A stretch of 64,000 nucleotides of DNA from Helianthus annuus (Eukaryota; Streptophyta; Magnoliopsida; Asterales; Asteraceae), in NCBI RefSeq assembly GCF_002127325.2, contig NC_035444.2:81395870-81459869 (forward strand), in the 5' to 3' direction. The translations under genes and the position numbers were made by a program. Below are positions 15,677-61,016 of the stretch, in pieces; positions within the stretch are counted from its first letter, which is position 1; each line of letters starts with the position of its first letter. The notes below the pieces were generated by a model. The model ran no database searches. It saw only the letters and a list, made by a program, of their open reading frames with translations, and had not been told where the DNA came from.

Positions 15677-15735
15677 TATTTTTGGATTTTTATTTTTTTT
15701 TACTAAAACTTAACACTAAACACTTTGCGCACGCC

Positions 15736-19105: not shown

Positions 19106-19240
19106 AGGAAAACAATAAAGGACAAAATAAAAGATTAGGATTAGTCCTAAGTCCGTTGCCTAGACTCGGAGGTCAAGGAATGTGCAAATGTGTCATTGAG
19201 ATTAAACACAAAAGGCTATTGTTTAATTCACTCAATGTTG

Positions 19241-35788: not shown

Positions 35789-38700
35789 CTAATTATGAAC
35801 ATCCTTGAGTTGTTGTAAATCTTGAACTCTAAGCAGTTCTCGCATTGTAGCAAACTTGACGCTTGCTAGTGCGTTCGTTAGTATGTCTGCCCGTTGTAGT
35901 TCTCCACTGATGTGTTCCACATTGATGTGTTCGTTCTCCACGCATTCCCTTATGAAATTATAACGTGCATCAATGTGTGTGCTTCTTCCATGAAAGACTA
36001 GATTCTTCATGAGTGCTATTGCAGAAAAATTATCCACCCTTAGTGTTATCTTCTCTTCCTTCCAGCATGTAACTTCACTTAACAATCTTTAAGCCGTAGT
36101 GCTTGGCATGTTGCTGCAGTGGCTGCTGATTCACATGATGATAACGCGACTGTCTGTTGCTTCTGTGTGCACCAGGTTATAGGTGATTCTCCAAAGTAGA
36201 ATACTAGACCAGTTGTACCTTTTCCTTGGTCTGTGGTAACTCCATAACTGCTATCACTATAACCTATGATCTTACATCCTCCTTGCTTCTTGTATATGAT
36301 TCCATGTTCTTTAGTTCCTTTGATATAACGTAGTACTTGCTTCACTGCTTTCAAGAGATGCTCCTTTGGTTCTTACATGAATTTACTAAGCAGACTGACT
36401 GGGTAACATAGATCTGGCCTTGTACGCAATAAGTACCTAAGAGAACCTATCAGGCTTATGTAATGCGTTGCATCTACTAGATCTCTTTCTTCAGTCTTAG
36501 TTAACTGTGTTCCTGAATTCATAGGAATCTTTGTGTCGTTGTAGGTTAACATATCAGCGTCTTTGAGTATCTTGTTAATATAGCCTGTCTGCTTGATGGC
36601 TATCTCACCCTCTGCTTGAATAACTTCTATTCTGAGATAGTATACTAGCAATCCTAGATCACTCATTTCAAACTTGTTCTCCATATGAGACTTGGAAATA
36701 CCTATCTCATTTCTTATTGTTCCAATGACTATCAAATCATCAACGTAGACTCCGACTATCAGTGTAAAAGTCTTACTTGTCCTTGTATAGATTGCTTGTT
36801 CTAAAGTGCGCTTCTTGAAGTTAAATGACTTTAGGATTTGATCTAACTTCGTATTCCAAGCACGTGGTGCTTGTCTCAATCCATACAGAGCCTTTGATAG
36901 TTTGTAGACTTTTCCTTCATCTCCTAGCTTTATAAATCCTTCAGGTTGTGATACATAGACCTCCTCCTTGAGATCTTTGTGTAAGAATGTGGACTTAACA
37001 TCTAAGTGATGTACCTCCCAACCTTGATATGTTGCTAAAGCTAACATTAGTCGAACTGTCTCTATTCGTGCTATTGGTGCAAAGACTTCCTCAAAGTCTA
37101 TCCCGTGTTGCTGAACATAACCTTTTGCTACCAGCCTTGCTTTGTATCTTATAACTGATATCCTTCTTAATTTTGAATACCCACTTTAATCCTATTGCCT
37201 TGTGATATCTTGGCAACTCTGTCAATTTCCAAGTGTTATTCCTGTTTATCGAGTCTAACTCAGCCTTCATTGCTTTAATCCATTTTCTGTTATTAGATGC
37301 TTCCTTGTAATTCCTTGGTTCTTCTTCAACAAGTAGTAATTCTTGTGGATCTACTTGAATTTCCTCCGTCTCTTCATATAGTTCTTCGAGACTTCTCAAC
37401 TTTACTGGAGTGTCATTAATACTCCCTGTTGTACTTTCAGATGTAGATGGACCTCTACTTGATAATCTGCTTGAACTTCCTGATGAGTTCTAATTGTACG
37501 AATGTGCTGGCGAGTTACATTGGAGTCTGGTTCTTCTGTCTGATCTACTCCTGAATCTTCATGATGTGACCCGCTACTATCAGGACTACTCAGTGCATTT
37601 TCTTCAAACTCTGGTGGGATGTCATCTTCTTGAATGACAAAGTTTGTCCATTCGGGATTCCCTGAATCTACCGTTTCCATATAACTATTCCAGTTCCATG
37701 GTTGACCTTCCATGAACTTTACATCTCTACTGACACATATCTTGTTCTTCGCCGGATAATATAATGTGTATGCCTTTGATCCTTCTTCTATTCCAATATA
37801 TATCATAGGTGCACTTCTATCATCTAACTTCTTTTGTTGAAGTGGTAGTACCTTAGCGTATGTTGTGCAGCCAAAAACCTTTAAGTGTTCCAGATTCGGC
37901 TTTCTTCCTTTCAATGCTTCATACGGGGTCTTGTTCACCAAAGCTTTCGTTGGAATCCGGTTTAATACGTATATCGTATGTCTTATTGTTTCACCCCAAA
38001 AATTCTATGGCTTGTTCATTTCCTTGAGCATACTACAAGTAGTTGACAACATCGTCCTGTTTCTTCTTTCCACTGCTCCATTTTGCTGTGGGGAATACAG
38101 CGTTGTAAGCTGTCTTGCTATGCCATTGTCTTTGCAATACTTGTTGAATTCAGCCGATGTGAATTCTCCTTCTCTGTCTATCCTTAACATTTTTAACTTG
38201 GTTCGAGTTTCTGTCTCCACTTTTTCTTTGAACTGCTTGAAAGTTTCGAACGCTTGATCCTTGGAAGTTAGTAGATATGCCTACATGTAGCGAGTACAAT
38301 CGTCTACAAGTAGGAATCTGTACTTCTTCCCAACATGTGTTTGTGGGGATATAGGACCACACAAATCTCCATAGACTAAATCCAGAGGTTTAAGGATCTG
38401 AATTTTGTCTAATTTAGAAATGGTGTCCTACTATGTTTTCTTAATAAGCATGCGTCACACACTTGACGGTCATGACTTATTTGAGGAACTCCATGTACCA
38501 AGTTCTTTCAAGTCATTTCTTTGATAGCATCGACATTTAAATGGCCTAATCTTGCGTGCCATAACCATGCTAAATTTTATGTGTTTGAGAGCAGGCAGAT
38601 TGGTTTTCTAATCATCAATTTTACTTTATACAGCCTGTTCTTCATTCTCCTGACTCGCATTAGTAACTTTCTATTTCTTTCACGAAGTGTTAGTAAGTTT

Positions 38701-40042
38701 CCGTCCATAACTACTTTGCAACCAATTTTCTATGAGTTGTCCGAGGGAGATATGTTGTTTTTCAGACTTGGAATGTAGTATACTTGAGAAACAATCTTCT
38801 GTTCTTGGTTCAGACATTCCAACAATATTGAACTTATACCTTTAATCTCTACGTGCGATCCGTCATCGAAACATACTTGCCCCGTCACCTTTTCATCTAA
38901 TTCTCTGAAGTGACTTCGCACACCTGTCATGTGGTTGCTTTCCCTGTTGTCTAAGTACCATAGACTTTCATCTTCTGTGGCGTACCTTACTGGTTCTATG
39001 CATTCTTCGTTTAACAGAACCCTTTCTTGAACAATGTTTTCTTCTTGTATTGCCATTAGCAATACGAGTGCTTCATCTTCTGGATAAGATTTGAGTGTTC
39101 TTGCACGAATTCTTTCTCGGGACAGTCTTTTTTAAAGTGTCCAAACTTTTGACACTTAAAGCCTTAGATCTTACTTGTGTTTGTTTGATTCCTTCTAAAC
39201 TTCCTCCAATTCCTAAAATTTCCACCTTTAGGTCTGTATGGAGATCCTTCATTCTTAGTGCCTTGCTTATCTTTAGTGTCTTGCTAATTTCCACGTGGTT
39301 GGTTGAACTTGCCACTCCCGCGGTTTCCAAAATGCCTTCCTCTGCCTGAATTGTTGTCATGATGTGTAAACATCAATCTATCTTGGCTATCTCCTAGCCT
39401 TCCTTTCTTTAACCTTAGCCTTTCTTCATAAGTCTTTAACCTTCCGACTGCTTCTTCTAGTGTCATTGTGTCTAGATCGGAGTATTGTTCCATGGAGGCG
39501 ACAATCTGAGTAAACTTATCTGGCACGACATTTAGGAGTTTTTGTACCAGAGTCGGTTAACTAAATGTTGTCCCTTATTCACTTGCCCCATTAACAACAT
39601 TGTTTATCTTTGCGGAGAAAGAGTCCATAGTGTCATCTTCTTTCATTTGCATTAATTCAAATTTTGACATTAGTGTATGCCAACGAGCCTTTTGGACCCG
39701 ATCCACACCAATGTGCTTTGTTTTCAAATTTTCCCAAATTTCTTTGCAGTCTTGCAACTTGCAATACAACATCTTTCGGTATTGCTTGGAACAGATAAGC
39801 AATTGCTGAATTATCTTTCTTAACATCCGTTTGTGTATTTCCTGCCGGTTCAATCATTTCCCAAAAGTCCATTCGCTTCTAAAATTGTTTTGATGCGAAT
39901 TGCCCAAACCGTATAGTTTTTCGGTTTCAAAATTGGACCCTGAAACTGGGAAAGAGAACTTCCCTCCTTTTGAATTACAATTTGTGGAGTTGGCCTGGTT
40001 GTTCCTGACATAACTTCTGACCGAACAATATTCACTTTTCAA
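35789..40042 (-). pseudogene. copia gag-pol, multiply disabled
   Basis: Minus-strand order: gag (from about 40042; SQFQGPILKPKNYTVWAIRI, IWENLKTKHIG), CCHC knuckle at about 39170-39130 (CQKFGHFKKDC), protease near 38950, integrase at 38760-37800 (GAVERRNRTM, NKTPYEALKG), RT at 37400-36370 (LKWVFKIKKDI, ALYGLRQAPRAWN, VYVDDLIVIG) and RNase H to 35789. The protease active site reads DNRES where copia elements have D-x-GAS, so it is dead. Frameshifts split gag, and several stops split integrase and RT. Confidence 0.9.
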
Positions 40043-41389: not shown

Positions 41390-41917
41390 GGAACCATAGC
41401 CATTCAATGCCCACTACTAATCTCTACAAACTATACTACTTGGGCCACCAGAATGGGGGAGTCCTAGATGCCCAAGGATTGTAGGAATTTGCAGAACCAG
41501 ATACTGATATAGTTGTAGATGAGAAGAAAAGCAAATTGACTAGAGCTTTCATATTTTAGGCGATACCGGAGGACATTCTATTGTAGGTGGCAAAGAAAAA
41601 GAATACTAATGAAATCTGGGATTCTCTGAAGGGTCATTACTTGGGAGCAGAGATAGTGCAGAAAGCATGTCTCAATACTCTCAAGAGTGAGTTTGAGAAT
41701 GAAGGAGGGGGAATCTATTGATGAGTATGCCAAAAAAATTACCAGGGATGATTTCTGGGTACATCAGTCTTGGTAAGACATTAACATATAGTGAACTAGT
41801 CAGGAAGCTACTGAAAAGTTCATTCATTTTATGGCATCAATGGAACAGTATTCTGATGTAGACAAAGTGGCGTTTGATGAAGCCAGTGGCCAATTCAAAG
41901 CATATGAAGACACACTC
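41390..41917 (+). pseudogene. copia gag, first part
   Basis: Readable fragments in the plus frames: KLTRAFIF, IPEDILL, EIWDSLKGHYLGAE, MASMEQYSDV, GQFKAYEDTL. Stops occur near 41470 and elsewhere. The last codons (Asp-Thr-Leu) continue after the insertion at 58193 with Lys-Leu-Arg-Gln. Gag of this family packages element RNA. Confidence 0.7.
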
Positions 41918-42484
41918 TGTTGGTATCATCGTCATCGGAAACCCAGGACCAGTCGGAACGGATTGAGTTGTGACCACATACACAATCACTTTCGAACAAA
42001 CCACAACCTTTACAATACTTCATCATGAATCAAACTAAGAGAACTTGCTGAATGATAATAACACTAACCGTAAACAAATCTGAACGAACTTGAACTTCTA
42101 ACAAACATAAACTTGCATTACAGATACTTTTAGAATGAGGATGGAGCCAAGTATTTATACCGAACGAATGGGTGTGAGTGAAAGGGTGCGACGATCAACA
42201 GAGGGGTACGTCTCCTCCCTCAATAACCGTATAAGCAGTTATACCTTCTTACTCACGCCGGTTCATGTAACATGGCCCAAACCTCATATGACCCAAACCT
42301 TTAAACCTACTGGACTACTAATTGTTTGACCCATATACATCACGTGGCCTCCGGCCCAAGTTCTAAACACAAATAATAAAACAGTAAACTGTTTTGACCC
42401 ATTTAGCAAAAACTAATAAACATAAATAACTACCGGGCCCGAAACCGGATTCATTCGGATGGACTTGATTATCTTTGGTCTTCA
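41918..42484 (-). repeat. ARID element LTR 1 (array left end)
   Basis: 567 bp, TGTTGGTATCATCG to TTTGGTCTTCA on the plus strand. Minus-strand termini TG...CA. Confidence 0.92.
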
Positions 42485-42525
42485 TTCACCGCCCTAAGCA
42501 AGAACATCCGAATCTTCAGCCTTGA
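42485..42525 (-). promoter_or_regulatory. ARID element 3' tail and polypurine tract
   Basis: The minus strand reads TTGCTTAGGGCGGTGAA just before LTR 1, a purine-rich tract in the expected place. Confidence 0.6.
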
Positions 42526-44199
42526 TTACTCCTTGCAGTTGTTGGTGACCTCTATCTTGACCACCACTTCGTCATCACTTGATTCTTCGAGCCAACCGTT
42601 GTTGTTAGAATTTCCAGCCATGACGTTTGCCTTTTTCCCACGCTCTTTCCTCATGAAGTCGAAATACCATTCGACTAGTTCCAAGTAGTAAATGTAGGCA
42701 ACCTTGACTTCGTATGCATCATCCGGCTCATAACCATACTTAGCCGCAATCACATCCCATAAATTCTTTTCCATTACTTCCTTGAATCCCCCGTTAAGCT
42801 TTACAATTCGATGTAACAAGATTAGACTAAGTTCACGGCCATCAATCAACTCGGGTGGCATTGCCTTTTCACATACGATTCCAAGAAAATCTGAAATGAA
42901 CCAAATCAAAATCTCTTCGAATGGAGCATCGAAGAACCTTTGATGATTCTTTAATTCTTCGTGCAAAGTTATGAGATCTTTCGGTTCTACACAACTTTCA
43001 ATGATCATGTTCTTTTTGATAACGTCTTCCTCGAGTTGTGAAAGAATTAACGCTCGTTCCCGGAGCGTTTCTTTTGACTCATACGGATTATCCTTTTCAC
43101 CTTCGATGTATATTAAAAGCGCCTTCTTTGCTTTCTTGGAGTAAACGATTTCTTTCTTTCTTGCCCTCGAACTTTCACCGTACGCCTTTTTCTTGTTCCT
43201 TTCCTTTTCGAATTCCCTCTCGTAGTAGTCTTCCAAACATTCTTTAAATTCCTTCTTTTCTTTCTTGTATCCGTTATCAACACCAAGATTATCATAAAAC
43301 GTGTTAAGATAATCTTGTTCTAAGTCGACCTCCGACTTATCTTCATAAATATCAAACCCTTTCGAGCGACTTCCAAACATCTTCTTTAGTAAACATGTAT
43401 CCCCCATTGTAACTGTTTCAATTCCTTGAAACAACAGTTGTTCTAGACTTAACACGTTCTTGTCTAGACTAGGAGCGTAACTTACACATGGGATTGTTTT
43501 GTCTTTACCATCCACCGGGACTCTAACTTCTCCAATACCATGCACAAACGAGAAATCCTTCCTATTCTCGTTTGTCACTAACCCAAAAGGCCTTTTGAAA
43601 CATTTGAACACATTCCGGTTTCCCGTCATGTGTGTTTTGTATGTAGGATCAACAACCCAAATCGAATCCCATTTACCGCCACATGTATCCTTAACCATAT
43701 AATCACTTTCAACCGGTAATGGCGATAAATTAACATACTTACTTGGGCAAATCGAGGCGATATGACCAAATTACTTGCACTTGAAGCAACGGATTCCCGG
43801 TTTCCTTGGTCTTCCCACCGGTGCACTTGCCTTCATTCCGGACTTCTTCACAAACCCATTTGGAACCATTTTCATTGGAAACTTCTTTACCGGTGACTTC
43901 CCGGTTCGTATGGTTGGCTTCCCCTGCGCGTACTCATTCATCTCTTCTGCCGCCCGGCCGCACTTTCCACTACGAACAACATCTACACCGTAGTCGGTCT
44001 CAAATGATTTTCCCTTGTCTCCTCGTAAACGGTTTCCATCATTGTCACAACCCTTTCCTGTTCCTGTTAAACCTTTGGCTCTGATACCAATGTTGGTATC
44101 ATCGTCATCGGAAACCCAGGACCAGTCGGAACGGATTGAGTTGTGACCACATACACAATCACTTTCGAACAAACCACAACCTTTACAATACTTCATCAT
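42526..44199 (-). pseudogene. ARID retroelement ORF, unit A (one ochre codon)
   Basis: The frame starts at 44199 inside LTR 2 with MMKYCKGCGLF. It reads through the primer site (DDTNIGIRAK) into a basic region, an AT-hook-like GRPRKP and a CCHC knuckle. TAA at 43771-43773 replaces the Gln of CFKCKQFGH. After it, the 390-aa remainder holds the protease-like domain (WDSIWVVDPTYKTHMTGN), a Lys/Glu-rich coiled-coil-like middle and an ARID domain near the C-terminus (PPELIDGRELSLILL, NGGFKEV, NLWDVIAAKYG). About ten residues differ from unit C. Confidence 0.85.
44077..44090 (-). promoter_or_regulatory. primer-binding site, tRNA-iMet (unit A)
   Basis: The minus strand reads TTGGTATCAGAGCC directly at the LTR 2 edge. 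It is at the same time coding sequence of the ORF. Confidence 0.9.
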
Positions 44200-44657
44200 G
44201 AATCAAACTAACAGAACTTGCTGAATGATAATAACACTAACCGTAAACAAATCTGAACGAACTTGAACTTCTAACAAACATAAACTTGCATTACAGATAC
44301 TTTTAGAATGAGGATGGAGCCAAGTATTTATACCGAACGAATGGGTGTGAGTGAAAGGGTGCGACGATCAACAGAGGGGTACGTCTCCTCCCTCAATAAC
44401 CGTATAAGCGGTTATACCTTCTCACTCACGCCGGTTCATGTAACATGGCCCAAACCTCATATGACCCAAACCTTTAAACCTACTGGACTACTAATTGTTT
44501 GACCCATATACATCACGTGGCCTCCGGCCCAAGTTCTAAACACAAATAATAAAACAATAAACTGTTTTGACCCATTAAGCAAAAACTAATAAACATAAAT
44601 AACTACCGGCCCGAAACCGGATTCATTCGGATGGACTTGATTATCTTTTGGTCTTCA
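44091..44657 (-). repeat. ARID element LTR 2
   Basis: 567 bp. It serves as 5' LTR of unit A and 3' LTR of the stub unit B, and it encodes the first 36 residues of ORF A. Confidence 0.92.
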
Positions 44658-44709
44658 TTCACCGTAGTCGGTCTCAACCGATTTTCCCTTGTCTCCTCGT
44701 AAACGGTTT
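44658..44709 (-). mobile_element. ARID stub unit B, left piece
   Basis: It starts TTCACCG like the polypurine side of unit A, then jumps to TAGTCGGTCTCAA, which in unit A lies about 1.5 kb further on after another CACCG (43989 region). The last five bases GGTTT are the target-site duplicate of gypsy III; the rest of the stub lies at 55401-55455. Confidence 0.85.
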
Positions 44710-47288
44710 TGTGACACCTCGTATTTTCGATCTTTCCATTTTTGGCAAGTCTACTTGTACTTTCTATTTTTGTAAGTTGTACCTTTGTGGTATTTGGTTT
44801 TATTCCCAAATTGTACCTCGAGACTTGAAATCATAATGAAAGTGCATTATTTTATTCATATTTGTGTTTGAATACTATGTATTGTCAAAACAATTAATAA
44901 CATGTTAAACTATGTTAAACACGTAAAAACAGTGAAAATACATCTTAATCTCAGCTCTCAAATTCATCACTGCCTAGAGATTACCCTAAACCGTACAAAA
45001 ACCGGGAATTTATACGTTGATTCGGTAAAAATATCAAAATTTGGGTTAAAATAATTTTTATATTATTTTATTAATATTTTAAATAAGTAAACTAATAATT
45101 AAAATTAAATAAATAAATATTTTAAACTGAATTTTTAATGATTTTTGTTAGTTTTGGTTAGTTAAACTAACTCAGTTAGTGAAAACCCAGTTAAATCAGC
45201 TAACTGGGTTAATTTTATCAAAGGGCAGCACTAACTGAGTTAGAAAACTCAGTTAGTGACTAACCCAGTTAGTCAGACTAACTGTTAGTAAAAAAGGGGG
45301 TCTCCTGGGTGAGAACCGGCCCTTGTGCGGGTTCGAACCCGGGTCTCTCGCATAACATACACGCGTTCTAACCACTCGGCCGGGCATGCCACATCCGACT
45401 TATATTGAAATCAAATTATATTTAACATCATATTAAATGCGAGAATTTAAAATAAAAACCGCCCAAACCATCCATCTTCTCCGACCCTTGAGTTTGTTAC
45501 CGGAAAATTTCGACCCTCCACCTTCGTAACTGAAGTGGTCCGATCGATCACCCTGCACTCTTTATAACTCGACCAACCCTCAAGATTTTCGGTCCCTCAC
45601 CACATAATCGCTTACCAGAACTCGAAGACGACTCGCCGGAAAAACTCATCGGGAACCATGGATTCTTTACTTTCGTTCCGATAATATGAACACGTCGGAA
45701 CTCGTTTCTTCGCCGAAGTCGTGCGGTGATCGTCAGAGATATTTCTTCATCTTGTTCGGTACACCCTTACCATTCGATCCATTTGTTTGTTTTTCTTATC
45801 ATCTCTAAAATATATATATCATGACTGAAGCAAGAAAAAAAAAGGGAAAACGGGACCTTAATTTATTACATATACAGTTATGCATGTTTTTATAAATGGA
45901 GAAGATTACCACCTAAATTGTTTTCTTGTATACAAATGAAACAACACGATTTCGATCAGAATTATGATTTTGTTTTAAATTAATGGTCAACTATTAGGAT
46001 AAGAAATCAAATACATGCACATACAGTTTCTGTAGTTGGTTTATTTATGAAGAAGACTACAAAACAGTTCATGATAAAAAGCATTATCAACCCATTTTAT
46101 ATATATATATATATTTTTATATATATACACATTTGATCCATGTGCATATGCACATTACGTAGACTTAGTCCCCACCACTCAAATTTAGCTAAATGACTAT
46201 ATTATCATCATTTCTATATTTTAGGTTAGGTTATTTAATTTTATAACTAAAGACTAAAACTTGTTATTTTGATAGGATACGTGGTGCTTCTATAATAGGA
46301 GGTGCTTATTTCCATTTCTTTTTTTAAGCATCCTAAGAATTTAATAAAAACAAATAATAAATCTAATATAATTCTCTTATATCAAGAAAGGTATTATGAG
46401 ATAAATTATATTATGCAAAATAATTATGCTGTAAAACATAAAATATTAGGAAGGTTATTTAAGGTACAATTATTAACTCGATCAATATGTGAAAGTCTAG
46501 GTTAATCGCTCTCGCTCGTTCTCTTGGATTTTATTCTCCATCTTTACTCGTACGTTCTTACACGAAAGCGCAACGCAATCAATGTGAGTATACATGACCC
46601 ATTTTCTATTTTATCACATTTTGGGTGCTGTATGCATTTCTATATCAAACACACTATGTTAAACATTTTTGCACCCTCAATCCACATTTCATGTGAATCT
46701 ATTTGACTCATGTTAATCACGTTATGCTACTGTTAAACATTTATGACTGTGTGTTCATTAACTTTGCAAGCCTCCCCTAACAATGGCAGCGCTGTAGGTT
46801 GAGAAACGCCCCTCCCATAATATTATGGGTATTGTTAGGTTTATTCTATGTTACTCATTTACCACCCTTCTAGGGTTAGGCTATGTTAATTGCGTTAAAC
46901 TTTGGTTTGAACACATAGATTTCATCATTACGAGTATAACTGTTAATATGAACTCATGTAGTCACGTGGATTTGAGCATGTTAAACTATTTCAAACATAT
47001 TATACTATATTCAAACTTGTATACTCGTCAACATGTTTTGTTGACTTTATTTTAAATGCATACTGCAGGGTGAGGAAGTCAAGATTTGAAGAAATGAATA
47101 GGATGGCCTAGAAACCCACTTCTGAAATAGACTATGTTTAATGTTTGTTATTTCCTTTTATGACAATGTATGAAACTTTGCAATTTTAATAAATGAAATT
47201 TAATTATATTGTCACATGTAGTGTTATGATGTTTTGAGCAATTTGTTCGTCTCATCCCGATGTTTCCGCCATCGGTTGGGGTGTGACA
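44710..47288 (+). repeat. 5' LTR of gypsy III
   Basis: TGTGACACCTCG to GGGTGTGACA. It contains blocks of (C)TAACTGAGTTAG-type repeats at 45160-45290, a tRNA-like segment, and a (TA)n run near 46100. Confidence 0.96.
45305..45392 (-). other. tRNA-like segment in LTR III (5' copy)
   Basis: On the minus strand an A-box-like GGCCGAGTGGTTA (45369-45381) is followed by a 5-bp anticodon-like stem (CGCGT/ATGCG) with a 7-nt loop. A perfect B-box-like GGGTTCGAACCC (45329-45340) comes next. The acceptor stem does not pair well. It resembles the head of a tRNA-derived SINE or a decayed tRNA gene and could act as an internal RNA polymerase III promoter. Confidence 0.5.
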
Positions 47289-47291
47289 GAT

Positions 47292-47304
47292 TGGTATCAG
47301 AGCC
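47292..47304 (+). promoter_or_regulatory. primer-binding site, tRNA-iMet (gypsy III)
   Basis: TGGTATCAGAGCC, three bases after the LTR end. Confidence 0.95.
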
Positions 47305-48285
47305 ATAACTATAGGGAATTAGGAAAAGTAGGAATGCTTTTACCTAGTCTGTAGTTTAGAAGCTTTCTCATTTATTTGCTGTTTAAGACAATATTCCCTT
47401 CTCTCTTCCTTGCTTCCCTCTATTCTTTTGGACTTCTAATATACAAGCCTTTCCTAAGGCTAACACAATACACACATGGAAGCTGTGAAGACACTCATGT
47501 AACACAATCGAAATGATTCATCAAAACAGGGGTGATTCCCATATTTGGTGATGATTCTCATTCAGCTTAAATTTGATTTTTGCACGAAATCTACCCTCAA
47601 GTTAGGAGTGACATCCATACCTTGATGGGAATTTCCATTTCATATTCTAGTGGACCCTCATCTTTGGATGAGTACCAACCACATCAGGGTACGATGTTAT
47701 CAAGTTAGAGGTGAAACTCGCATCTTGTTAACTAGTCCCATTCGTTGATTTTCGATCTCGCCAAAGTTTCGATTTTCCCAATCGATTAAGGACGTGTAGT
47801 AACTGGAAGGACAGATATCGTTAGTCGCTCCTCGATGAGAGTATTTGTCTATTAGGCCAAAGCACGTCTCCTTAATTCGAAAAGGATTTCGATTCACTTT
47901 GGATAGTCTTATGTTACGTTCCGTGACAATCCATATTTTTATGATAAATCTCTTTTTATGTTATCTCAATTATCATGTGATTTACATTTGAGCGTTATCT
48001 TCATTTCAAGTTTGGGAACACGAATCACGTTATTATCGCAATCTAAAACAATTAATAATTACTCCTTCGTGAACAAATAAATTTATCTTGCTTTCATCAT
48101 ACATGATATTCTATGTGTAACATCATGTTATTCTATGTGCAATGCTATGTTATTCTATGTGAAACTATTTGGCGATTCATGTGAAAAAAAAAACAATGTG
48201 CTATGTGATGCATACATGAAATCAATTTTCCTAAACAAAAACATTATGATTAAAGTCTCATCCATTCCTTGTTTTGAATTTCTAG
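47305..48285 (+). other. gypsy III untranslated leader
   Basis: About 1 kb without a plausible ORF between primer site and gag start. No motif recognised. Confidence 0.6.
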
Positions 48286-51200
48286 ATGTCGTCATCTCGC
48301 CAGTACTCTCACTCTCCCAGAAAATCCAAGGCTAACTCCAAAAAGAAAATGCTGACGTTCATGGCAAATCAGATTGCCAGAATCGTGCCAAAGATAGTGT
48401 CTGAGATTCAAGCCTCCAGCACTCCCAATCATTCTGGCGATTCTCACGTAGTACAGCCTAAACCAGTCTCGTTCAACTACAAACACTTCACTGCCTGTAA
48501 CCCCAAAACTTTCACTGGGAAGGATGGAGTGACAACTATGTTGGAATGGTTTGATAGCATGGAAGTCACGTTCATAAATAGTGAATGTCCAGAGGAACTC
48601 AAGGTGCGAAGTGCCACTGGTGTTTTCCAAGCCAGGGCACTAGACTGGTGGACTAACGAGAGAAACATTTGATCCAATGAGCTAGCTTACGCGTTGTCTT
48701 GGGAAGAGCTCAGACAGCTTATGATGGAGGAATTCTGCCCTCCTCATGAGCAGCAGAAGTTAGAAGAAGAGTTCTAGACCCTCAAACAAGTTGGGGATGA
48801 AAACCTTGCATACACTACCCGGTTCAAGCAGTTGTGTTTTATCGTGCCTCATTTGGTGTTGACCACAGAACGCACCATTCGGAAGTATATCAATGGGTTG
48901 CCTCCTACGATGCGTGATACCATCGAGGCGGCTAGGTTGGATAATATTGAGGATGTGTACCGCCTCGCGGCAAGTTTGAATAATAATCGAGTTCGTGATA
49001 AACAAGTCGCAGCAGCATCTAAACCTACATCCTCCTCAAAACCTGCTCATCAAATCACCCACAACAATAGGGGAAAGAAGCGTGCTCACCAATCCTCAAT
49101 TTGCAACGCTGTTACACCAGTTGAAAATCCAAAACCTAACCCAGCAAACCCAGAAAAGAAGCAATACACAGGAACAAACCCTAAGTGCACCACTTGCCAC
49201 TTTCATCACCCAACTACGAGCCCATGTAGACACTGTACCTCCTGCAATCGCTATGGGCATTTGGCAGCATACTGTCGCAATAACCCAACGACAGCCCAAA
49301 ACTCAAAGCCAGCAAATGTGGTCAGGGCATGTTTCAAATGTGGGGATCCAACTCACCTACGACCTCAGTGTCCTCAATTGAGGCAAGATTTACAGCAGAA
49401 GGCACCACAAGGCCGTGCATTTGTTATCAATGCTCAGCAAGCGCGCAACGACAATGAGGTCGTGAACGGTACGTTCCTCTTTAATAATTTGTATGCTTCT
49501 ATTCTATTTGATACTGGTGCAGATAAATGTTTTGTATCTGTAGAATTTGAACCATTGTTAAAATGCACACGCTCAAAACTACCTAAGTCATTCCCAGTCG
49601 AAGTTGCCAATGGCAAGTCTATTCGTGTCGATTCTGTTCTTCGTAATTGTACTCTCACTTTGAATGATCATGCCTTTTCAATTGACCTCATACCCATGGA
49701 GTTGGGTAGTTTCGACATCATAGTAGGCATGGATTGGCTTCGAAAGAACCATGCTGAAATTGCCTGTTTCGAAAAATACGTTCGTTTGCCTCTTCCATCA
49801 GGCGATACCCTACATGTTTATGGGGATCGACCTTCCAAAGGTCTAAAGCTAATGTCGTGCACACAAGCGAATAGATACTTACGTAAAAAGTACTTTGCCT
49901 TTTTAGCCCACGTAGTGGAAGAAAAGGGCAAGGGAAAATGCGTAAGCGATGTTCCGGTTGTACGTGAATTCCCAGAAGTTTTTCCTGAGGATTTACCTGG
50001 TCCTCCTCCTCCTCGATCAGTTGACTTTCGTATCGACCTTGTGCCTGGTGCAACTCCTGTTGCACGAGCTCCCTATCGCCTTGCACCATCTGAGATGCAA
50101 GAGCTTTCCAGCCAACTCCAGGAGCTTCTTGACAAGGGTTTCATTCGACCCAGTACCTCTCCTTGGGGTGCTCCTGTTCTATTCGTTAAAAAGAAAGATG
50201 GTTCGTTTCGAATGTGTATCGATTATCGAGAGCTCAACAAGCACACTATCAAAAATCGATATCCACTACCTCGAATCGACGACCTCTTTGATCAACTCCA
50301 AGGTGCAAGTTATTTCTCCAAGATTGATCTTCGATCTGGCTATCATCAACTTCGTGACCTCGAAGAGGATATCCCAAAAACCGCATTTCGAACACGCTAT
50401 GGACACTACGAGTTCGTAGTCATGCCTTTTGGTCTGACTAACGTGCCCGCCGTGTTCATGGATTTGATGAATCGTGTTTGCAAACCTTATCTAGATCGAT
50501 TCGTGATTGTCTTCATTGATGACATCCTAATTTATTCAAAATCTCGAGTCGATCACGAGCGTCATTTACGTCTCATACTCGAACTTTTGCGAAGTGAACG
50601 TTTATACGCAAAGTTCTCAAAGTGTGAATTCTGGATCAAGGAAGTCCAATTCCTTGGACATGTCGTTAGCGAAAAAGGTATTCATGTCGACCCTGCTAAA
50701 ATTGAAGCTGTCAAAAGTTGGATTGCACCTAAAAACCCATCAGAAATTCGTTCATTCCTAGGATTGGCGGGTTACTACCGTCGATTCATCTCAAATTTTT
50801 CTAAGATAGCTGTTCCCCTCACTATGTTGACCCAAAAGGAAAAACCTTTCGTTTGGAGTCACGAGCAGGAAGAAGCTTTTCAAACCCTCAAGGACATGCT
50901 TTGCAATGCTCCTATCTTAACCCTACCTGACGGAAATGATGACTTCGTAGTATATTGCAATGCATCAAATCATGGTCTTGGTTGCGTCCTTATGCAACGA
51001 GGCAAGGTCATTGCATACGCTTCTCGCCAATTAAAGATTCATGAGAAAAATTACACTACTCACGATCTTGAACTTGGTGCTGTCGTCTTCGCATTAAAAA
51101 TATGGCGTCACTATCTATATGGTACGAAATGTGTTGTATACACTGATCACAAAAGTCTACAACATATCTTCAATCAAAGAGAATTAAATATGCGTCAACG

Positions 51201-52773
51201 TCGTTGGGTGGAATTACTTAACGACTATGACTGCGAGATTCGCTACCATCCTGGAAAGGCGAATGTCGTAGCTGATGCCCTGAGTCGTAAGGCTCATTCC
51301 TATCGTATGCGTTGTTTTCAAGTGTCAAGTGATCTTCACAATTGTATTCGTGAAGCTCAGTTTGCGTCAGCTAACGAAGGAAGTTTGCTCGTCGAAATCC
51401 GTGGTGCCTCTATGGATCAACTTGTGACGAAGTCAGACGGACTTCAATATTATCTTAATCGCATTTGGGTACCAAATCGCGACAATCTTCGTGAATTTAT
51501 CATGAACGAGGCTCATAAGTCTAAATACTCAATACATCCTGGTGCTGATAAGATGTATCATGATCTTCGAACATCTTATTGGTGGCCTGGTATGAAGAAT
51601 GATATAGCCTTGTATGTCTCAAAATGTCTTACATGCTCGAAGGTTAAAGCAGAGCATCAGCGTCCCTCTGGTTTGCTCGAACAACCAGAAATTCCTGTTT
51701 GGAAGTGGGATAGTATTGCAATGGACTTTATAACTAAACTTCCTCGAACCTCATCTGGTAATGATAGTATTTGGGTCATCGTTGATCGTTTGACCAAGTC
51801 AGCCCATTTCTTACCTATTCGGGAAGACTTCAAAGTTGAAAAACTTGCTCGAGTCTATACTGATGAAATCATCTGTCGTCATGGCATACCTCGTGACATC
51901 ATTTCAGACCGTGATGGTCGTTTCACGTCTCGCCTATGGCAAACTTTTCAATCAGCCATGGGTACTTATTTAAATCTTAGTACAGCCTTCCATCCTCAAA
52001 CAGATGGACAGACTGAGCGTACCATTCAAACTCTCGAAGATATGCTTCGATCCTGTGTCATTGACTTTGGTGGTAGTTGGGATGTGCATTTGCCTCTGGT
52101 CGAATTCTCGTACAATAACAGCTATCACTCCAGCATTCAAATGGCCCCATTCGAAGCATTATATGGGCGAAAATGTCGATCACCAATCAGTTGGCACGAA
52201 ATTGGTGATAAGCAATTTACTGGTCCTGAGCTTATTCAAGAAACCACGGACAAGATTCTTCAAATCCGTGACAATTTACTCAAGGCCAGGAATCGACAAA
52301 AGAGTTACGCAGATAAAGGACGCAAACCCATGGAATTCAATGTTGGGGATCAAGTATTACTTAAAGTATCTCCATGGAAAGGGGTTGTTCGATTCGGTAA
52401 AAAGGGTAAACTTGCCCCTCGTTGCGTTGGACCCTTCAAAATCCTCGAACGAGTTGGCAAGGTAGCGTATTTGGTGGATCTACCACAGGAACTGAGTAAT
52501 GTTCATCCGACATTTCACGTTTCAATTCTCAAGAAATGTCTAGCTGATGAAGGACTTCATGTCCCAGTCGACGACTTGCAAATCAACGATACGCTTCATT
52601 TCGTGGAAAGACCAGTTGAAATTGTGGATCAAGGTACCAAGCAGCTCAGACGCAGCAAAATTCGCATTGTAAAAGTACGATGGGAAGGCAAGCGTGGTGC
52701 TGAGTTTACTTGGGAACTCAAAAGTGACATGATGGCAAAGTATCCACATCTCTTCGATCAGTCTTCTTCTTAA
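48286..52773 (+). pseudogene. gypsy III gag-pol with two nonsense codons in gag and a mutated RNase H site
   Basis: Start ATG 48286. Gag is interrupted by TGA at 48670-48672 (after NERNI) and TAG at 48775-48777 (after EEEF, where relatives have Trp). The rest is open (1313 aa from 48832): knuckles [14 protein letters not shown] and [14 protein letters not shown], retropepsin FDTGAD, RT (FIDDIL), RNase H, integrase with HHCC finger and D965-x60-D1026-x35-E1062, and a chromodomain-like end ([23 protein letters not shown]). In RNase H the first catalytic Asp is Asn (YCNAS, codon AAT at 50959-50961). The same frame joins all parts. Confidence 0.93.
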
Positions 52774-52809
52774 GATTTCGAGGACGAAATCTCCTAAAGT
52801 AGGGGAGAC
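52774..52809 (+). promoter_or_regulatory. gypsy III polypurine tract
   Basis: AAAGTAGGGGAGAC directly precedes the 3' LTR. Confidence 0.85.
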
Positions 52810-55395
52810 TGTGACACCTCGTATTTTCGATCTTTCCATTTTTGGCAAGTCTACTTGTACTTTCTATTTTTGTAAGTTGTACCTTTGTGGTATTTGGTTT
52901 TATTCCCAAATTGTACCTCGAGACTTGAAATCATAATGAAAGTGCATTATTTTATTCATATTTGTGTTTGAATACTATGTATTGTCAAAACAATTGATAA
53001 CATGTTAAACTATGTTAAACACGTAAAAACAGTGAAAATACATCTTAATCTCAGCTCTCAAATTCATCACTGCCAAGAGATTACCCTAAACTGTACAAAA
53101 ACCGGGAATTTATACGTTGATTCGGTAAAAATATCAAAATTTGGGTTAAAATAATTTTTATATTATTTTATTAATATTTTAAATAAGTAAACTAATAATT
53201 AAAATTAAATAAATAAATATTTTAAACTGAATTTTTAATGATTTTTGTTAGTTTTGGTTAGTTAAACTAACTCAGTTAGTAAAAACCCAGTTAAATCAGC
53301 TAACTAGGTTAATTTATCAAAGGACAACACTAACTAAGTTAGAAAACTCAGTTAGTGACTAACCCAGTTAGTCAGACTAACTGTTAGTAAAAAAGGGGGT
53401 CTCCTGGGTGAGAACCGGCCCTTGTGCGGGTTCGAACCCATGTCTCTCGCATAACATACACGCGTTCTAACCAGTCGGCCGGGCATGCCACATCCGACTT
53501 ATATTGAAATCAAATTATATTTAACATCATATTAAATGCGAGAATTTAAAATAAAAACCGCCCAAACCATCCATCTTCTCCGACCCTTGAGTTTGTTACC
53601 GGAAAATTTCGACCCTCCACCTTCGTAACTGAAGTGGTCCGATCGATCACCCTGCACTCTTTATAACTCGACCAACCCTCAAGATTTTCGGTCCCTCACC
53701 ACATAATCGCTTACCAGAACTCGAAGACGACACGCCGGAAAAACTCATCGGGAACCATGGATTCTTTACTTTCGTTCCGATAATACGAACACGTCGGAAC
53801 TCGTTTCTTCGCCGAAGTCGTGCGGTGATCGTCAGAGATATTTCTTCATCTTGTTCGGTACACCCTTACCATTCGATCCATTTGTTTGTTTTTCTTATCA
53901 TCTCTAAAATATATATATCATGACTGAAGCAAGAAAAAAAAAGGGAAAACGGGACCTTAATTTATTACATATACAGTTATGCATGTTTTTATAAATGGAG
54001 AAGATTACCACCTAAATTGTTTTCTTGTATACAAATGAAACAACACGATTTCGATCAGAATTATGATTTTGTTTTAAATTAATGGTCAACTATTAGGATA
54101 AGAAATCAAATACATGCACATACAGTTTCTGTAGTTGGTTTATTTATGAAGAAGACTACAAAACAGTTCATGATAAAAAGCATTATCAACCCATTTTATA
54201 TATATATATATATATATATATTTTTATATATATACACATTTGATCCATGTGCATATGCACATTACGTAGACTTAGTCCCCACCACTCAAATTTAGCTAAA
54301 TGACTATATTATCATCATTTCTATATTTTAGGTTAGGTTATTTAATTTTATAACTAAAGACTAAAACTTGTTATTTTGATAGGATACGTGGTGCTTCTAT
54401 AATAGGAGGTGCTTATTTCCATTTCTTTTTTTAAGCATCTTAAGAATTTAATAAAAACAAATAATAAATCTAATATAATTCTCTTATATCAAGAAAGGTA
54501 TTATGAGATAAATTATATTATGCAAAATAATTATGCTATAAAACATAAAATATTAGGAAGGTTATTTAAGGTACAATTATTAACTCGATCAATATGTGAA
54601 AGTCTAGGTTAATCGCTCTCGCTCGTTCTCTTGGATTTTATTCTCCATCTTTACTCGTACGTTCTTACACGAAAGCGCAACGCAATCAATGTGAGTATAC
54701 ATGACCCATTTTCTATTTTATCACATTTTGGGTGTTGTATGCATTTCTATATCAAACACACTATGTTAAACATTTTTGCACCCTCAATCCACATTTCATG
54801 TGAATCTATTTGACTCATGTTAATCACGTTATGCTACTGTTAAACATTTATGACTGTGTCTTCATTAACTTTGCAAGCCTCCCCTAATAATGGCAGCGCT
54901 GTAGGTTGAGAAACGCCCCTCCCATAATATTATGGGTATTGTTAGGTTTATTCAATGTTACTCATTTACCACCCTTCTAGGGTTAGGCTATGTTAATTGC
55001 GTTAAACTTTGGTTTGAACACATAGATTTCATCGTTACGAGTATAACTGTTAATATGAACTCATGTAGTCACGTGGATTTGAGCATGTTAAACTATTTCA
55101 AACATATTATACTATATTCAAACTTGTATACTCGCCAACATGTTTTGTTGACTTTATTTTAAATGCATACTGCAGGGTGAGGAAGTCAAGATTTGAAGAA
55201 ATGAATAGGATGGCCTAGAAACCCACTTTTGAAATAAACTATGTTTAATGTTTGTTATTTCCTTTTATGACAATGTATGAAACTTTGCAATTTTAATAAA
55301 TGAAATTTAATTATATTGTCACATGTAGTGTTATGATGTTTTGAGCAATTTGTTCGTCTCATCCCGATGTTTCCGCCATCGGTTGGGGTGTGACA
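52810..55395 (+). repeat. 3' LTR of gypsy III
   Basis: 2586 bp, a near copy of the 5' LTR with about 23 substitutions and a longer (TA)n tract at 54198-54220. The tRNA-like segment is at about 53405-53492; there its A box has CAGTCGG for CACTCGG while the B box stays intact. Confidence 0.96.
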
Positions 55396-55400
55396 GGTTT

Positions 55401-55455
55401 CCATCATTGTCACAACCCTTTCCTGTTCCTGTTAAACCTTTGGCTCTGATACCAA
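55401..55455 (-). mobile_element. ARID stub unit B, right piece with primer site
   Basis: Continues CCATCATTGTCACAACCC after the gypsy III target duplicate, up to the primer site TTGGTATCAGAGCC (minus, 55442-55455). Together with 44658-44709 it makes a 107-bp internal region, so LTR 2, stub and LTR 3 look like a TRIM element. Confidence 0.85.
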
Positions 55456-56021
55456 TGTTGGTATCATCGTCATCGGAAACCGAGGACCAGTCGGAACGGA
55501 TTGAGTTGTGACCACATACACAATCACTTTCGAACAAACCACAACCTTTACAATACTTCATCATGAATCAAACTAACAGAACTTGCTGAATGATAATAAC
55601 ACTAACCGTAAACAAATCTGAACGAACTTGAACTTCTAACAAACATAAACTTGCATTACAGATACTTTTAGAATGAGGATGGAGCCAAGTATTTATACCG
55701 AACGAATGGGTGTGAGTGAAAGGGTGCGATGATCAACAGAGGGGTACGTCTCCTCCCTCAATAACCGTATAAGCAGTTATACCTTCTCACTCACGCCGGT
55801 TCATGTAACATGGCCCAAACCTCATATGACCCAAACCTTTAAACCTACTGGACTACTAATTGTTTGACCCATATACATCACGTGGCCTCCGGCCCAAGTT
55901 CTAAACACAAATAATAAAACAGTAAACTGTTTTGACCCATTAAGCAAAAACTAATAAACATAAATAACTACCGGCCCGAAACCGGATTCATTCGGATGGA
56001 CTTGATTATCTTTGGTCTTCA
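55456..56021 (-). repeat. ARID element LTR 3
   Basis: 566 bp, same termini as the other LTRs. It encodes the first 36 codons of the truncated unit B ORF (start at 55564), which now runs into gypsy III. Confidence 0.92.
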
Positions 56022-56062
56022 TTCACCGCCCTAAGCAAGAACATCCGAGTCTTCAGCCTTGA

Positions 56063-57735
56063 TTACTCCTTGCAGTTGTTGGTGACCTCTATCTTGACCA
56101 CCACTTCGTCATCACTTGATTCTTCGAGCCAACCGTTGTTGTTAGAATTTCCAGCCATGACGTTTGCCTTTTTCCTACGCTCTTTCCTCATGAAGTCGAA
56201 ATACCATTCGACTAGTTCCAAGTAGTAAATGTAGGCAACCCTGACTTCGTATGCATCATCCGGCTCATAACCATACTTAGATGCAATCACATCCCATAAA
56301 TTCTTTTCCATTACTTCCTTGAATCCCCTGTTAAGCTTTGCAATTCGATGTAACAAGATTAGACTAAGTTCACGGCCATCAATCAACTCGGGTGGCATTG
56401 CCTTTTCACATACGATTCCAAGAAAATCTGAAATGAACCAAATCAAAATCTCTTCGAATGGAGCATCGAAGAACCTTTGATGATTCTTTAATTCTTCGTG
56501 CAAAGTTATGAGATCTTTCGGTTCTACACAACTTTCAATGATCATGTTCTTTTCGATAACGTCTTCCTCGAGTTGTGAAAGAATTAACGCTCGTTCCCGG
56601 AGCGTTTCTTTTGACTCATACGGATTATCCTTTTCACCTTCGATGTATATTAAAAGCGCCTTCTTTGCTTTCTTGGAGTAAACGATTTCTTTCTTTCTTG
56701 CCCTCGAACTTTCAACATACGCCTTTTTCTTGTTCCTTTCCTTTTCGAATTCCCTCTCGTAGTAGTCTTCCAAACATTCTTTAAATTCCTTCTTTTCTTT
56801 CTTGTATCCGTTATCAACACCAAGATTACCATAAAACGTGTTAAGATAATCTTGTTCTAAGTCGACCTCCGACTTATCTTCATAAATATCAAACCCTTTC
56901 GAGCGACTTCCAAACATCTTCTTTAGTAAACATGTATCCCCCATTGTAACTGTTTCAATTCCTTGAAACAACAGTTGTTCTAGACTTAACACGTTCTTGT
57001 CTAGACTAGGAGCGTAACTTACACATGGGATTGTTTTGTCTTTACCATCCACCGGGACTCTAACTTCTCCAATACCATGCACAAACGAGAAATCCTTCCT
57101 ATTCTCGTTTGTCACTAACCCAAAATGCCTTTTGAAACATTTGAACACATTCCGGTTTCCCGTCATGTGTGTTTTGTATGTAGGATCAACAACCCAAATC
57201 GAATCCCATTTACCGCCACATGTATCCTTAACCATATAATCACTTTCAACCGGTAATGGCGATAAATTAACATACTTACTTGGGCAAATCGAGGCGATAT
57301 GACCAAATTGCTTGCACTTGAAGCAACGGATTCCCGGTTTCCTTGGTCTTCCCACCGGTGCACTTGCCTTCATTCCGGACTTCTTCACAAACCCCTTTGG
57401 AACCATTTTCATTGGAAACTTCTTTACCGGTGACTTCCCGGTTCGTATGGTTGGCTTCCCCTGCGCGTACTCATTCATCTCTTCCGCCGCCCGGCCGCAC
57501 TTTCCACTACGAACAACATCTACACCGTAGTCGGTCTCAAACTATTTTCCCTTGTCTCCTCGTAAACGGTTTCCATCATTGTCACAACCCTTTCTTGTTC
57601 CTGTTAAACCTTTGCTCTGATACCAATGTTGGTATCATCGTCATCGGAAACCCAGGACCAGTCAGAACGGATTGAGTTGTGACCACATACACAATCACTT
57701 TCGAACAAACCACAACCTTTACAATACTTCATCAT
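56063..57735 (-). pseudogene. ARID retroelement ORF, unit C (471 aa intact C-terminal part)
   Basis: From Met 57478 an uninterrupted 471-aa frame runs: AT-hook-like GRPRKP (43-48), CCHC knuckle C52-x2-C55-x4-H60-x4-C65, copia protease-like domain (about 91-185; VVDPTYKTHMTG, where active copia enzymes have D-S/T-G), charged Lys/Glu-rich middle (200-310), ARID domain (about 340-427; PPELIDGRELSLILL, FKEVMEKNLWDVIASKYG) and an acidic tail. The N-terminal part from 57735 in LTR 4 is cut by a one-base loss in the primer site (57614 region) and TAG at 57542-57544. ARID domains bind DNA, mostly AT-rich, in nuclear chromatin proteins. Inferred role: nuclear DNA-binding protein of a non-autonomous element. 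Confidence 0.87.
57614..57626 (-). promoter_or_regulatory. primer-binding site, unit C (one base shorter)
   Basis: The minus strand reads TTGGTATCAGAGC, then AAAGG; one C is missing relative to units A and B. This also shifts the ORF. Confidence 0.85.
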
Positions 57736-58192
57736 GAATCAAACTAACAGAACTTGCTGAATGATAATAACACTAACCGTAAACAAATCTAAACGAACTT
57801 GAACTTTTAACAAACATAAAGTTGCATTACAGATACTTTTAGAATGAGGATGGAGCCAAGTATTTATACCGAACGAATGGGTGTGAGTGAAAGGGTGCGA
57901 CGATCAACAGAGGGGTACGTCTCCTCCCTTAATAACCGTATAAGCGGTTATACCTTCTCACTCACGCCGGTTCATGTAACATGGCCCAAACCTCATATGA
58001 CCCAAACCTTTAAACCTACTGGACTACTAATTGTTTGACCCATATACATCACGTGGCCTCCGGCCCAAGTTCTAAACACAAATAATAAAACAGTAAACTG
58101 TTTTGACCCATTAAGCAAAAACTAATAAACATAAATAACTACCGGCCCGAAACCGGATTCATTCGGATGGACTTGATTATCTTTGGTCTTCA
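57627..58192 (-). repeat. ARID element LTR 4 (array right end)
   Basis: 566 bp, ending TTTGGTCTTCA against copia gag sequence GACTCAAGCTG. Confidence 0.92.
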
Positions 58193-58650
58193 GACTCAAG
58201 CTGAGACAAAGCCATGCAACAAGTGACTGAAGTTTGTTGTTTATCAAGTCAGAGAACCAAACAACACAAAAGAGATTTAGTAGAGGTTCCAGCAACAATG
58301 GAAGGGGCCATGGATCTTGTAATTATCTAGGTGGTCGTGTTGGTTCAAGAGGAAGAGGATCAAGCCATGGTCGAGGCGATCGATCAACACATGGTGCACA
58401 ACAAGAAAACTCGAATATAAGAAACAAGAAAGACAAGAAGCACATACAATGTTTTACATGTCCAAATTATTGATATTGCTTCTGAATGCAAAATGAATAA
58501 AGAGAAAGCTGATGAAGTACACTTGACTGAAAAACATGATGATGAACCTGCCTTGATGCTTTCAATAATTGGTGAAGAGCACCCTACCATGGACTTAATG
58601 GAGAAAAGGTGTTCCCAAATAATCTAGGTTCCTTAACCTTAGATGGTGAC
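58193..58650 (+). pseudogene. plus-strand copia gag, second part
   Basis: Continuation of the gag at 41390-41917: Gly/Arg/Ser-rich SRGSSNNGRGHG, RGRGSSHGRG, then a decayed knuckle (HIQCFTC followed by a stop) and an acidic pre-protease stretch (EADEVHL-like, EEHPTMDLM). The frame is broken several times. Similarity is lost after about 58650. Confidence 0.7.
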
Positions 58651-59577: not shown

Positions 59578-61016
59578 ATGACAAGAAAGATAGGAGTTTA
59601 TATAGCTTCAACCTTCCAAGTCTTCGGGGACTACCACTCCGTCCAAGTTGCGGATTCTTTTGCAAGACGATACTATAACACTCTCTGCCATTCTCCACAA
59701 AATACTTACCAACTTTACAAGGATGAAAGCATCCTATCCCGTCCAGGGGACCATGGAATGCGTTCAATTACAACTATCAAGGTATGCAATCAAGAAACAC
59801 TTAGTTTGGTCTATGAGTAATTAATGAATTAGAACTTACATTATCAATATTTCTTCTATTTTAAGCAGTTTTGATAGTAGTAATTTGTTTGCTCTAGGGG
59901 TGCATAAATTTGCATAACGAACGTATGCATTTGGTTTTGGTTCAGGAAATAGAAAAGGAGATAGCACTTTCTATTATGACGAGCACGACCATCATTCTGT
60001 TCACTATGCATGCTCAAGAAACGATAGGAAAGTCTATTATCGTTGGTGTCACGGGCTTGTTAACCAAAGATGGCATGTCAAAAGGCTTCTCCCAAAACCT
60101 CTTGTTAGCACCACAACCTAGAGGGTTTTATGTGAAAAATGACTTCCTTTGGTTTACAGATATGAGCCATCTTGTCCCCATTGGTATATATAATTTGTCA
60201 TGTTATCTATTTACTCCAGGCGGGTGTATTCTGGTTTCATATTATCAAATTTTCTATTTTGTTTAGTGGAATACAATGTGGTTTCTATGGAAGAAAATGA
60301 CACCTCTAGAGATGAAGATGTTGATGCTCTCAATCAAATTGAAAGCTCAACCGTTGTCCCCTCACTAGCATCCGAGCAGATTTTGGAAAATAATAGCTCA
60401 AACATTGTTCCTGCGACAACCGAGTCATCCACTGTCATTCAGGCCCGGGAAGGTATCTCCGGATAACATTTATATGAACCAAATTCTTTGGTTATCTTCA
60501 CTTTAAGTGGTGGCATTGATTTTGCACTAAACTCTCTTTTCATACATATTGCAGCTAAGATGATCTTAGTAAGAGACTTACCACCACAGGTCGATCGCAA
60601 ATCACTGGCCCTTGCACTTAAGGATTTCGGATCTGTCAAGTATAGGAACATCCAGATTAGAAAATATAATGTACGATCAAGCTTATTTTTTTCTTTCTTG
60701 TGTCTAACAATGTTGTATAGTATATTTCTGAGACATTAATGTTGTGTAGGATGGTTATCATTATGCTATTGTGGAGTTCAATAGCTCAAGAGCTGCAAAC
60801 CAAGCTGTTCAGGTATGTCTTTAAACAAAGATGAGCTCCCTTTTGGTGAATTGATGAAAAACTGTGTTATCCTAACTACTTAAAAGTCATAATTAAGTAT
60901 TATTCAACATTAGGCTCTATAATCTTATAGTTATAAGTTTTGTTTTTCTTTTATTGTAGGCTGGCTCTATCAGTTTGGATGGTCGCGAATGCTTTGTTGA
61001 ACCTAAGAAAGCTTAG
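59578..61016 (+). CDS. NTF2 + RRM protein (G3BP-like RNA-binding protein), six exons
   Basis: Model: 59578-59781, 59946-60183, 60267-60452, 60555-60670, 60750-60812, 60960-61016, all GT-AG with agreeing phases; 287 aa. Exons 1-2 encode an NTF2-like domain (VQVADSFARRYYNTL, LSRPGDHGMRSITTIK, GVTGLLTKDG, SQNLLLAPQPRGFYVKND). Exon 3 is an acidic Ser/Glu linker. Exons 4-6 encode an RRM (ILVRDLPPQV as RNP2, YHYAIVEF as RNP1, SLDGRECFVEPKKA). Plant G3BP-like proteins bind RNA in cytoplasmic granules and usually end in an RGG tail, which is missing here. The start of exon 2 is divergent, so a decayed copy is possible, but no stop breaks the model. Confidence 0.7.

Follow-up and report, generated by a model that had tools for sequence, protein, structure and literature searches.

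What kind of sequence occupies positions 41918–58192 of a 64,000-nucleotide stretch of the Helianthus annuus genome (the window; contig NC_035444.2, positions 81,395,870–81,459,869, assembly GCF_002127325.2), and what could an ARID domain contribute to it? A preliminary description of this DNA had proposed a non-autonomous long terminal repeat (LTR) retroelement that encodes such a domain. Most likely the span represents a single insertion of a non-autonomous LTR element, derived from copia, in the Helianthus genome, and this element very probably belongs to a retrotransposon family of Helianthus that consists of LTRs, a primer-binding site (PBS), a degenerate polypurine tract and a single open reading frame (ORF) of about 556 aa. 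The best explanation overall, a copia-derived element mobilised in trans and encoding a nucleoprotein adaptor protein, has about an even chance of being correct.

The span proposed earlier coincides with the outer ends of an array of four LTRs (L1–L4), all on the minus strand, 566–567 bp each and reading TGAAGACC...ACCAACA, with a Ty3/gypsy element nested within the array. The hallmarks of an LTR retrotransposon are present, namely, TG...CA LTRs, a PBS directly after the LTR, and a target-site duplication, of which the left copy (CACTC, 41913–41917) and the right copy (GACTC, 58193–58197), both read on the plus strand, agree at four of five bases. In unit A, the 5′ LTR L1 (57627–58192, 566 bp, TG...CA) is followed by the PBS TTGGTATCAGAGC (57614–57626), which is read in frame as ..IGIRA.. 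and which we take to be the usual plant initiator methionine tRNA primer-binding site. A degenerate polypurine tract GCTTAGGGCGGTGAA, assigned by eye, lies ahead of the internal LTR L2 (tract 56022–56036; L2 55456–56021). The same tract precedes the 3′ LTR of unit B, and the same PBS stands directly 3′ of three LTRs, while the fourth is followed by flanking DNA. Unit B lies between the internal LTR L3 (44091–44657) and its 3′ LTR L4 (41918–42484). The middle unit is reduced to about 100 bp, comprising an upstream piece with PBS and leader (55396–55455, minus strand) and a downstream piece (44658–44709, minus strand); its ORF is gone, and CGGTG is found at the junction (microhomology, by eye). 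The gypsy element sits in this remnant on the plus strand (44710–55395; LTRs about 44710–47288 and 52810–55395, ends by eye) with the target-site duplication GGTTT (AAACC on the minus strand), one copy of which is 55396–55400. The reverse transcriptase (RT)/integrase ORF found within the span (48778–52773) is part of this nested element. Units A and B each have two LTRs and one ORF, broken in both, and no pol.

Two independent insertions were rejected, since element sequence joins the internal LTRs and the target-site duplication is found only at the outer ends; the LTRs of the preliminary description are present, but they delimit one four-LTR array rather than two elements. On the plus strand, three pieces of the left flank match the copia protein P0045 in its Gag part, the last of them (41813–41917) ending at the array. 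Joining the flanks with a single five-base copy extends this match by three residues and leaves ten open codons ahead of a stop (KAYEDTL/KLRQ), suggesting that the 16.3-kb array is most likely a single insertion in a degenerate copia gag-like gene on the plus strand (41414–41917 and 58198 onward, assigned by the P0045 match on the left and by eye on the right). Further out, the right flank has a stretch rich in Gly and Arg and a motif resembling a knuckle (by eye). It counts against this assignment that no copia Gag match was obtained with the right flank alone.

The family ORF starts with an ATG inside the LTR, reads through the LTR end and the PBS as ..TNIGIRAKG.., and encodes in order an LTR-coded N-terminus with four cysteines, a basic linker, a CCHC knuckle, a protease barrel and a C-terminal half with the ARID domain. 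Judged by their reading frames, both window copies are dead because of stops or a frameshift. In unit A (56063–57735, minus strand) the ATG at 57735 lies in L1 and the longest open piece is 56063–57541; the lesions are a 1-nt deletion at the PBS end and an in-frame TAG at codon 65, and there is also an Arg in the GG of the ARID. In unit B (42526–44199, minus strand) the ATG at 44199 lies in L3 and the frame is open to the knuckle, which is split between two open pieces by a TAA for CAA at codon 143 (43771–43773). The two near-identical ORFs were correctly located in the earlier account, but both are broken copies of one ORF of about 556 aa, and the presence of intact ORFs in the window was rejected on account of these lesions.

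In hmmscan, copy A (56063–57541, minus strand) matched zf-CCHC (4.3e-5; zinc knuckle at 57278–57328), Pol_BBD (2.5e-10; copia protease-like beta-barrel with D-P-T at 56966–57196) and ARID (7.5e-7; Pfam-matched part 56219–56392). Copy B (42526–43770, minus strand) matched Pol_BBD (3.1e-10) and ARID (1e-9), with the ARID fold at 42649–42924 (residues 77–168 of a modelled C-terminal piece). The Pol_BBD model presumably represents the copia protease. No RT or integrase domain was matched in either ORF (Pfam, E up to 1), and no integrase, RT or RNase H domain was found in the element, in agreement with the non-autonomous nature assigned to it earlier. No capsid-type gag family was matched in copies A and B (Pfam, E up to 1) or was among the four families matched by 30 members (E up to 0.01).

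The earlier suggestion of a multi-member family was borne out. A profile search, in which the best 7992 candidates by shared words (0.55 to 1.75 times the query length) were scored, returned 45 proteins, namely, 44 Helianthus clusters with 277 member sequences from H. annuus, H. anomalus and H. debilis, and the copia Gag-Pol protein P0045, the sole match outside Helianthus among these candidates. Among viral contigs, 414 stretches matched a pattern, and no relative was among them. The primer-site peptide IGIRA is present in 26 of the 44 proteins, and 25 of them cover most of the 35 LTR-coded residues; the four LTR-coded cysteines are kept in 21/25, 26/26, 22/24 and 22/26 of the rows with a residue there. 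A number of gene models lack internal stretches, as if spliced around lesions. In H. debilis, a MYB-type gene model (P0039) is fused to the N-terminal part of the element ORF, the fusion being due either to insertion into a MYB gene or to an error in the model.

Over the knuckle and protease, the family member P0001 and P0045 are aligned in register with 49 of 172 columns identical (28%), WVVDPTFKTHMTGNRNVF against WYLDNGASNHMTGNRNFF; together with the Pol_BBD match this alignment places the CCHC-protease part with the Gag-Pol of Ty1/copia elements. Active copia proteases carry the consensus D-S/T-G/A. Both window copies read D-P-T at the site, as described before, and P0045 itself reads D-N-G-A. 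The site is covered by 34 of the 44 clusters in the alignment (10 lack coverage); all 34 have Pro at the second position and none has the active consensus, the first residue being Asp in 32, Tyr in one and Glu in one. Because Pro occupies the site in all covering clusters, its loss, as read from this alignment, predates the spread of the family, a conclusion already drawn as probable for the amplification from the two window copies.

The identity of the ARID domain was also upheld. The profile scores of 29.9 bits (copy A) and 39.1 bits (copy B) exceed the Pfam cut-off of 24.1, an ARID match was obtained for 27 of 30 family members at E<=0.01, and the fold ranking for the modelled C-terminal piece of unit B is headed by solved ARIDs, with no significant E-value for the models in Foldseek. 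The full-length model is poor (predicted local distance difference test, pLDDT, 43.9), and the barrel has no confident model. In the C-terminal modelling, a first alignment was set aside because of copy A's Arg in the conserved GG, which is invariant in 30 rows (copy B and 29 homologues). A search for the ARID donor with the ARID region of P0026, under matching that needs shared exact 5-residue words, returned P0026 and P0030 alone.

In all 30 sequences the domain carries a net charge of −5 to −11 (three of them cover the stretch incompletely), and over matching stretches copy B has −2 to −4 against +1 to +6 in five solved ARID fragments, which do not amount to a survey. In P0001, residues 93–155, including the knuckle, have a net charge of +19, and residues 425–515 (ARID) of −9. 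This split suggests that the basic half is likely to be the nucleic-acid-binding end and makes it doubtful that the ARID binds DNA directly; the acidity of the domain argues against plain AT-rich DNA binding. The proposal that the element uses its ARID to bind host chromatin finds no support in these predicted charges.

Conservation varies along the protein. Between P0001 and P0026, identical residues number 19/35 in the LTR-coded part, 18/46 in the linker, 25/32 in the knuckle region, 66/85 in the barrel, 74/124 in the middle part, 50/91 in the ARID and 9/42 in the tail (barrel versus ARID, p=0.002; ARID versus tail, p=3e-4). Five of ten compared members (P0016, P0025, P0026, P0030 and P0037) were tested, each against P0001, and the comparisons are non-independent with uncorrected p values. 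The difference between ARID and tail was significant in four of the five comparisons and that between barrel and ARID in three of the four computed; the highest tested region was the barrel against P0016 and P0025 and the knuckle region against P0026 and P0030. In these alignments, barrel and knuckle are conserved best, the ARID less and the tail least.

A working mode in which the element, equipped with its own protein, is mobilised in trans by a copia partner is proposed, with chances that fall slightly short of even. An autonomous copia partner would supply the particle and the enzymes, and selection on the moving lineages would keep the element protein, since it would help its own RNA or complementary DNA (cDNA) to be carried along by the partner. 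The basic segment (+19), together with the knuckle, may bind the RNA or cDNA of the element, the inactive, well conserved barrel could dock on the protease or Gag of the partner, and the acidic domain with the ARID fold would have its role in the nucleus, protein contact being a likelier mode than plain binding of AT-rich DNA. It is a tentative and rather unlikely refinement that the dead copia protease turned docking barrel and the host-type ARID together form an adaptor that would guide the RNA or cDNA towards a partner in chromatin or protect it from silencing.

Several observations weigh against the trans-mobilised adaptor. No autonomous copia partner was identified, and the absence of a capsid domain leaves particle entry an assumption. 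The contrast between ARID and tail fails for P0016 (p=0.14) and that between barrel and ARID for P0030 (p=0.33), and the conservative-replacement test for the ARID was significant in only one of five comparisons. The family proteins are annotated gene models and as such biased to open frames. Finally, the window copies drift neutrally, as expected of dead copies, units A and B differing in coding sequence by 13 nonsynonymous (two of them nonsense) to 4 synonymous changes against a neutral expectation of 2.7 : 1.

This neutral decay would also fit the alternative that comes closest, in which the ARID half is a captured fragment of a host gene carried as passive cargo without a role, movement depends on the LTRs and the enzymes of a partner, and the open frames reflect recent bursts. 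Gene capture is common in plant LTR elements according to the available parts of two reports (PMC7264820, PMC13317346), and close copies prove little, since 17 of 300 runs were stop-free at 90% identity when a piece of 471 codons was simulated under neutrality. However, members that are about 57–65% identical to the window protein retain both the frame and the ARID match, and conservation differs between regions of the protein. Stop-free runs in the simulation fell to 1/300 at 75% identity and 0/300 at 57% and 63% (mean stops 9.9 and 8.7). Because neutral runs at 57% and 63% identity were never stop-free, the diverged open members point to selection on replicating lineages, judged from open frames rather than from a ratio of nonsynonymous to synonymous rates (dN/dS). 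Passive cargo is considered unlikely.

Derivation by internal deletion from a larger autonomous copia element with CCHC, protease, integrase, RT and ARID is quite improbable. The length range of the protein search would have missed such a long polyprotein, but the ORF runs from the protease to the ARID half with no integrase or RT match, even in P0001 and P0026, which are 57% identical.

Still less probable is a domesticated family of host regulators with a CCHC-barrel-ARID architecture that LTR elements carry or duplicate. Such an origin would be in keeping with the annotation, in which 39 of the 44 clusters are labelled as 'putative transcription factor interactor and regulator CCHC(Zn) family', 'chromatin remodeling ARID family' or the like, and GAG fusions to host domains are known in sunflower (PMC9784723, in the part available). 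However, the window ORF begins in the LTR and crosses the PBS, a PBS-type peptide recurs in 26 of the 44 proteins, the window copies lie in an LTR array with a target-site duplication, and the HadGAG genes are described in that part of the report as lacking LTRs and having 4–10 exons. The family names carried by these Helianthus clusters have practical relevance for annotation; the name of most clusters also occurs in gene lists near sunflower mapping signals in the portions available of two studies (PMC9875907, PMC13164398), which is a match of names only.

The least probable alternative is a regulator of its own LTR, in which the ARID and basic segment would bind AT-rich DNA in the LTR and either increase or limit transcription: the ARID-like fold, the basic stretch containing GRPRK and a TATA box seen by eye in the LTR would suit it, but all 30 sequences have an acidic ARID and Pfam gives no AT-hook for the window ORFs (E up to 1). 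The GRPRK motif is present in many family members, and an AT-hook is not claimed for it in view of this Pfam result.

Chromatin-protein modules are known in plant LTR elements from the chromodomain integrases of chromoviruses, in which the module is part of a gypsy integrase, whereas the ARID described here belongs to a copia-derived protein that stands by itself. Should the ARID serve the element, it would represent a further route, besides integrase chromodomains, for a plant LTR element to gain such a module, in this case in an element without enzymes of its own. If the adaptor reading is true, the case would be one of a retroelement that encodes an ARID, with translation starting at an ATG within the LTR and running directly across the PBS. 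The dead protease, which with the knuckle is the best conserved part, offers a case in which a binding role of a pseudo-protease can be tested.

Both TR-GAG elements and fusions of GAG have been described in sunflower, and, as far as the available text of that report goes, TR-GAG and other TR- plant elements likewise have two LTRs around a single retroelement-derived ORF and no pol (PMC9784723). The ARID element differs from TR-GAGs so described in that no capsid-type gag domain was found, the ORF starts inside the LTR, a dead protease is kept and an ARID half is added; it may nevertheless be among the TR-GAGs of that report, with its ARID unrecognised. HadGAG1-3 and Ctrg10, as outlined there, also join a retroelement protein to another domain, but are genes without LTRs and with 4–10 exons, whereas the window copies of the ARID element are still bounded by LTRs. 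Bs1-type gene-transducing elements, in the sections available (PMC7264820), resemble it as LTR elements that carry foreign coding sequence in sense orientation; here, in contrast, the additional part is an in-frame fusion retained even in diverged members, and no donor gene was identified. The word 'ARID' is absent from the main texts of PMC7264820, PMC13317346 and PMC9784723, and no retroelement ARID was reported in the titles and abstract openings retrieved, most subscription papers and all supplements being beyond that scope.

The LTRs also bear on the origin of the array. Private substitutions in L1, L2, L3 and L4 number 5, 2, 1 and 3, which is near a star, and mean LTR divergence is 1.09% (37 substitutions in total for the six pairs, each of about 566 bp), which at an assumed rate of 1e-8 per site per year would correspond to about 0.5 million years, an age not used further. 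The internal regions of units A and B differ at 18 positions and by one indel over about 1605 bp, a depth similar to that of the LTRs; the LTRs of the gypsy element differ at 24 of 2582 positions. These divergences fit three units that would have been nearly identical at birth. Probably the array arose as three tandem units of this kind, by template switching or by unequal exchange soon after insertion; afterwards the middle ORF would have been lost and the gypsy element inserted there. Complex multi-LTR insertions, which the accessible text of one report attributes to template switching and describes as very similar in their outer LTRs (Sabot and Schulman 2007, PMC1950507), likewise have units that share LTRs and one target-site duplication around the whole, but the array has four LTRs instead of three and its outer LTRs are not the most alike. 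Two points weigh against this account: at one site L2 agrees with L4 against L1 and L3, and the outermost pair L1–L4 is the most divergent of the six (9 substitutions over about 566 bp), which does not favour template switching. Because of the latter, unequal exchange soon after insertion is considered as likely as template switching.

Other retroelements and repeats lie elsewhere in the window. Another copia element on the minus strand (36376–39933; RVT_2 1.2e-75, SH3_retrovirus 6.2e-26; matches to P0045) is perhaps bounded by a direct repeat (35361 and 40274, 93%). An ORF at 59898–60263, about 1.7 kb away from the array, matches the NTF2 domain (6.3e-7); a sunflower GAG-NTF2 fusion, HadGAG3, is described in the part available of PMC9784723. 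Two plus-strand ORFs at 22574–23593 have B3 DNA-binding domain matches (8.1e-10, and 0.0014, which is below the cut-off). Direct repeats between 8105–11325 and 19373–21783 are mostly 92–98% alike, perhaps as LTRs or a duplication, the spacing of the pairs being about 11.2 kb for most and 9.2 kb for one; the ORFs between them (14624–15709 and 17879–19159) have no Pfam match (E up to 0.01). At the window edge, positions 2–4102 hold a gypsy element with two abutting minus-strand ORFs, one for gag-protease and the other, truncated by the edge, for RT-integrase. Tandem repeats are found at 6933–7878 (period 488 bp, 1.9 copies), 24704–25556 (207 bp, 4.1 copies), 26703–27568 (437 bp, 2.0 copies) and 27901–28272 (115 bp, 3.0 copies).

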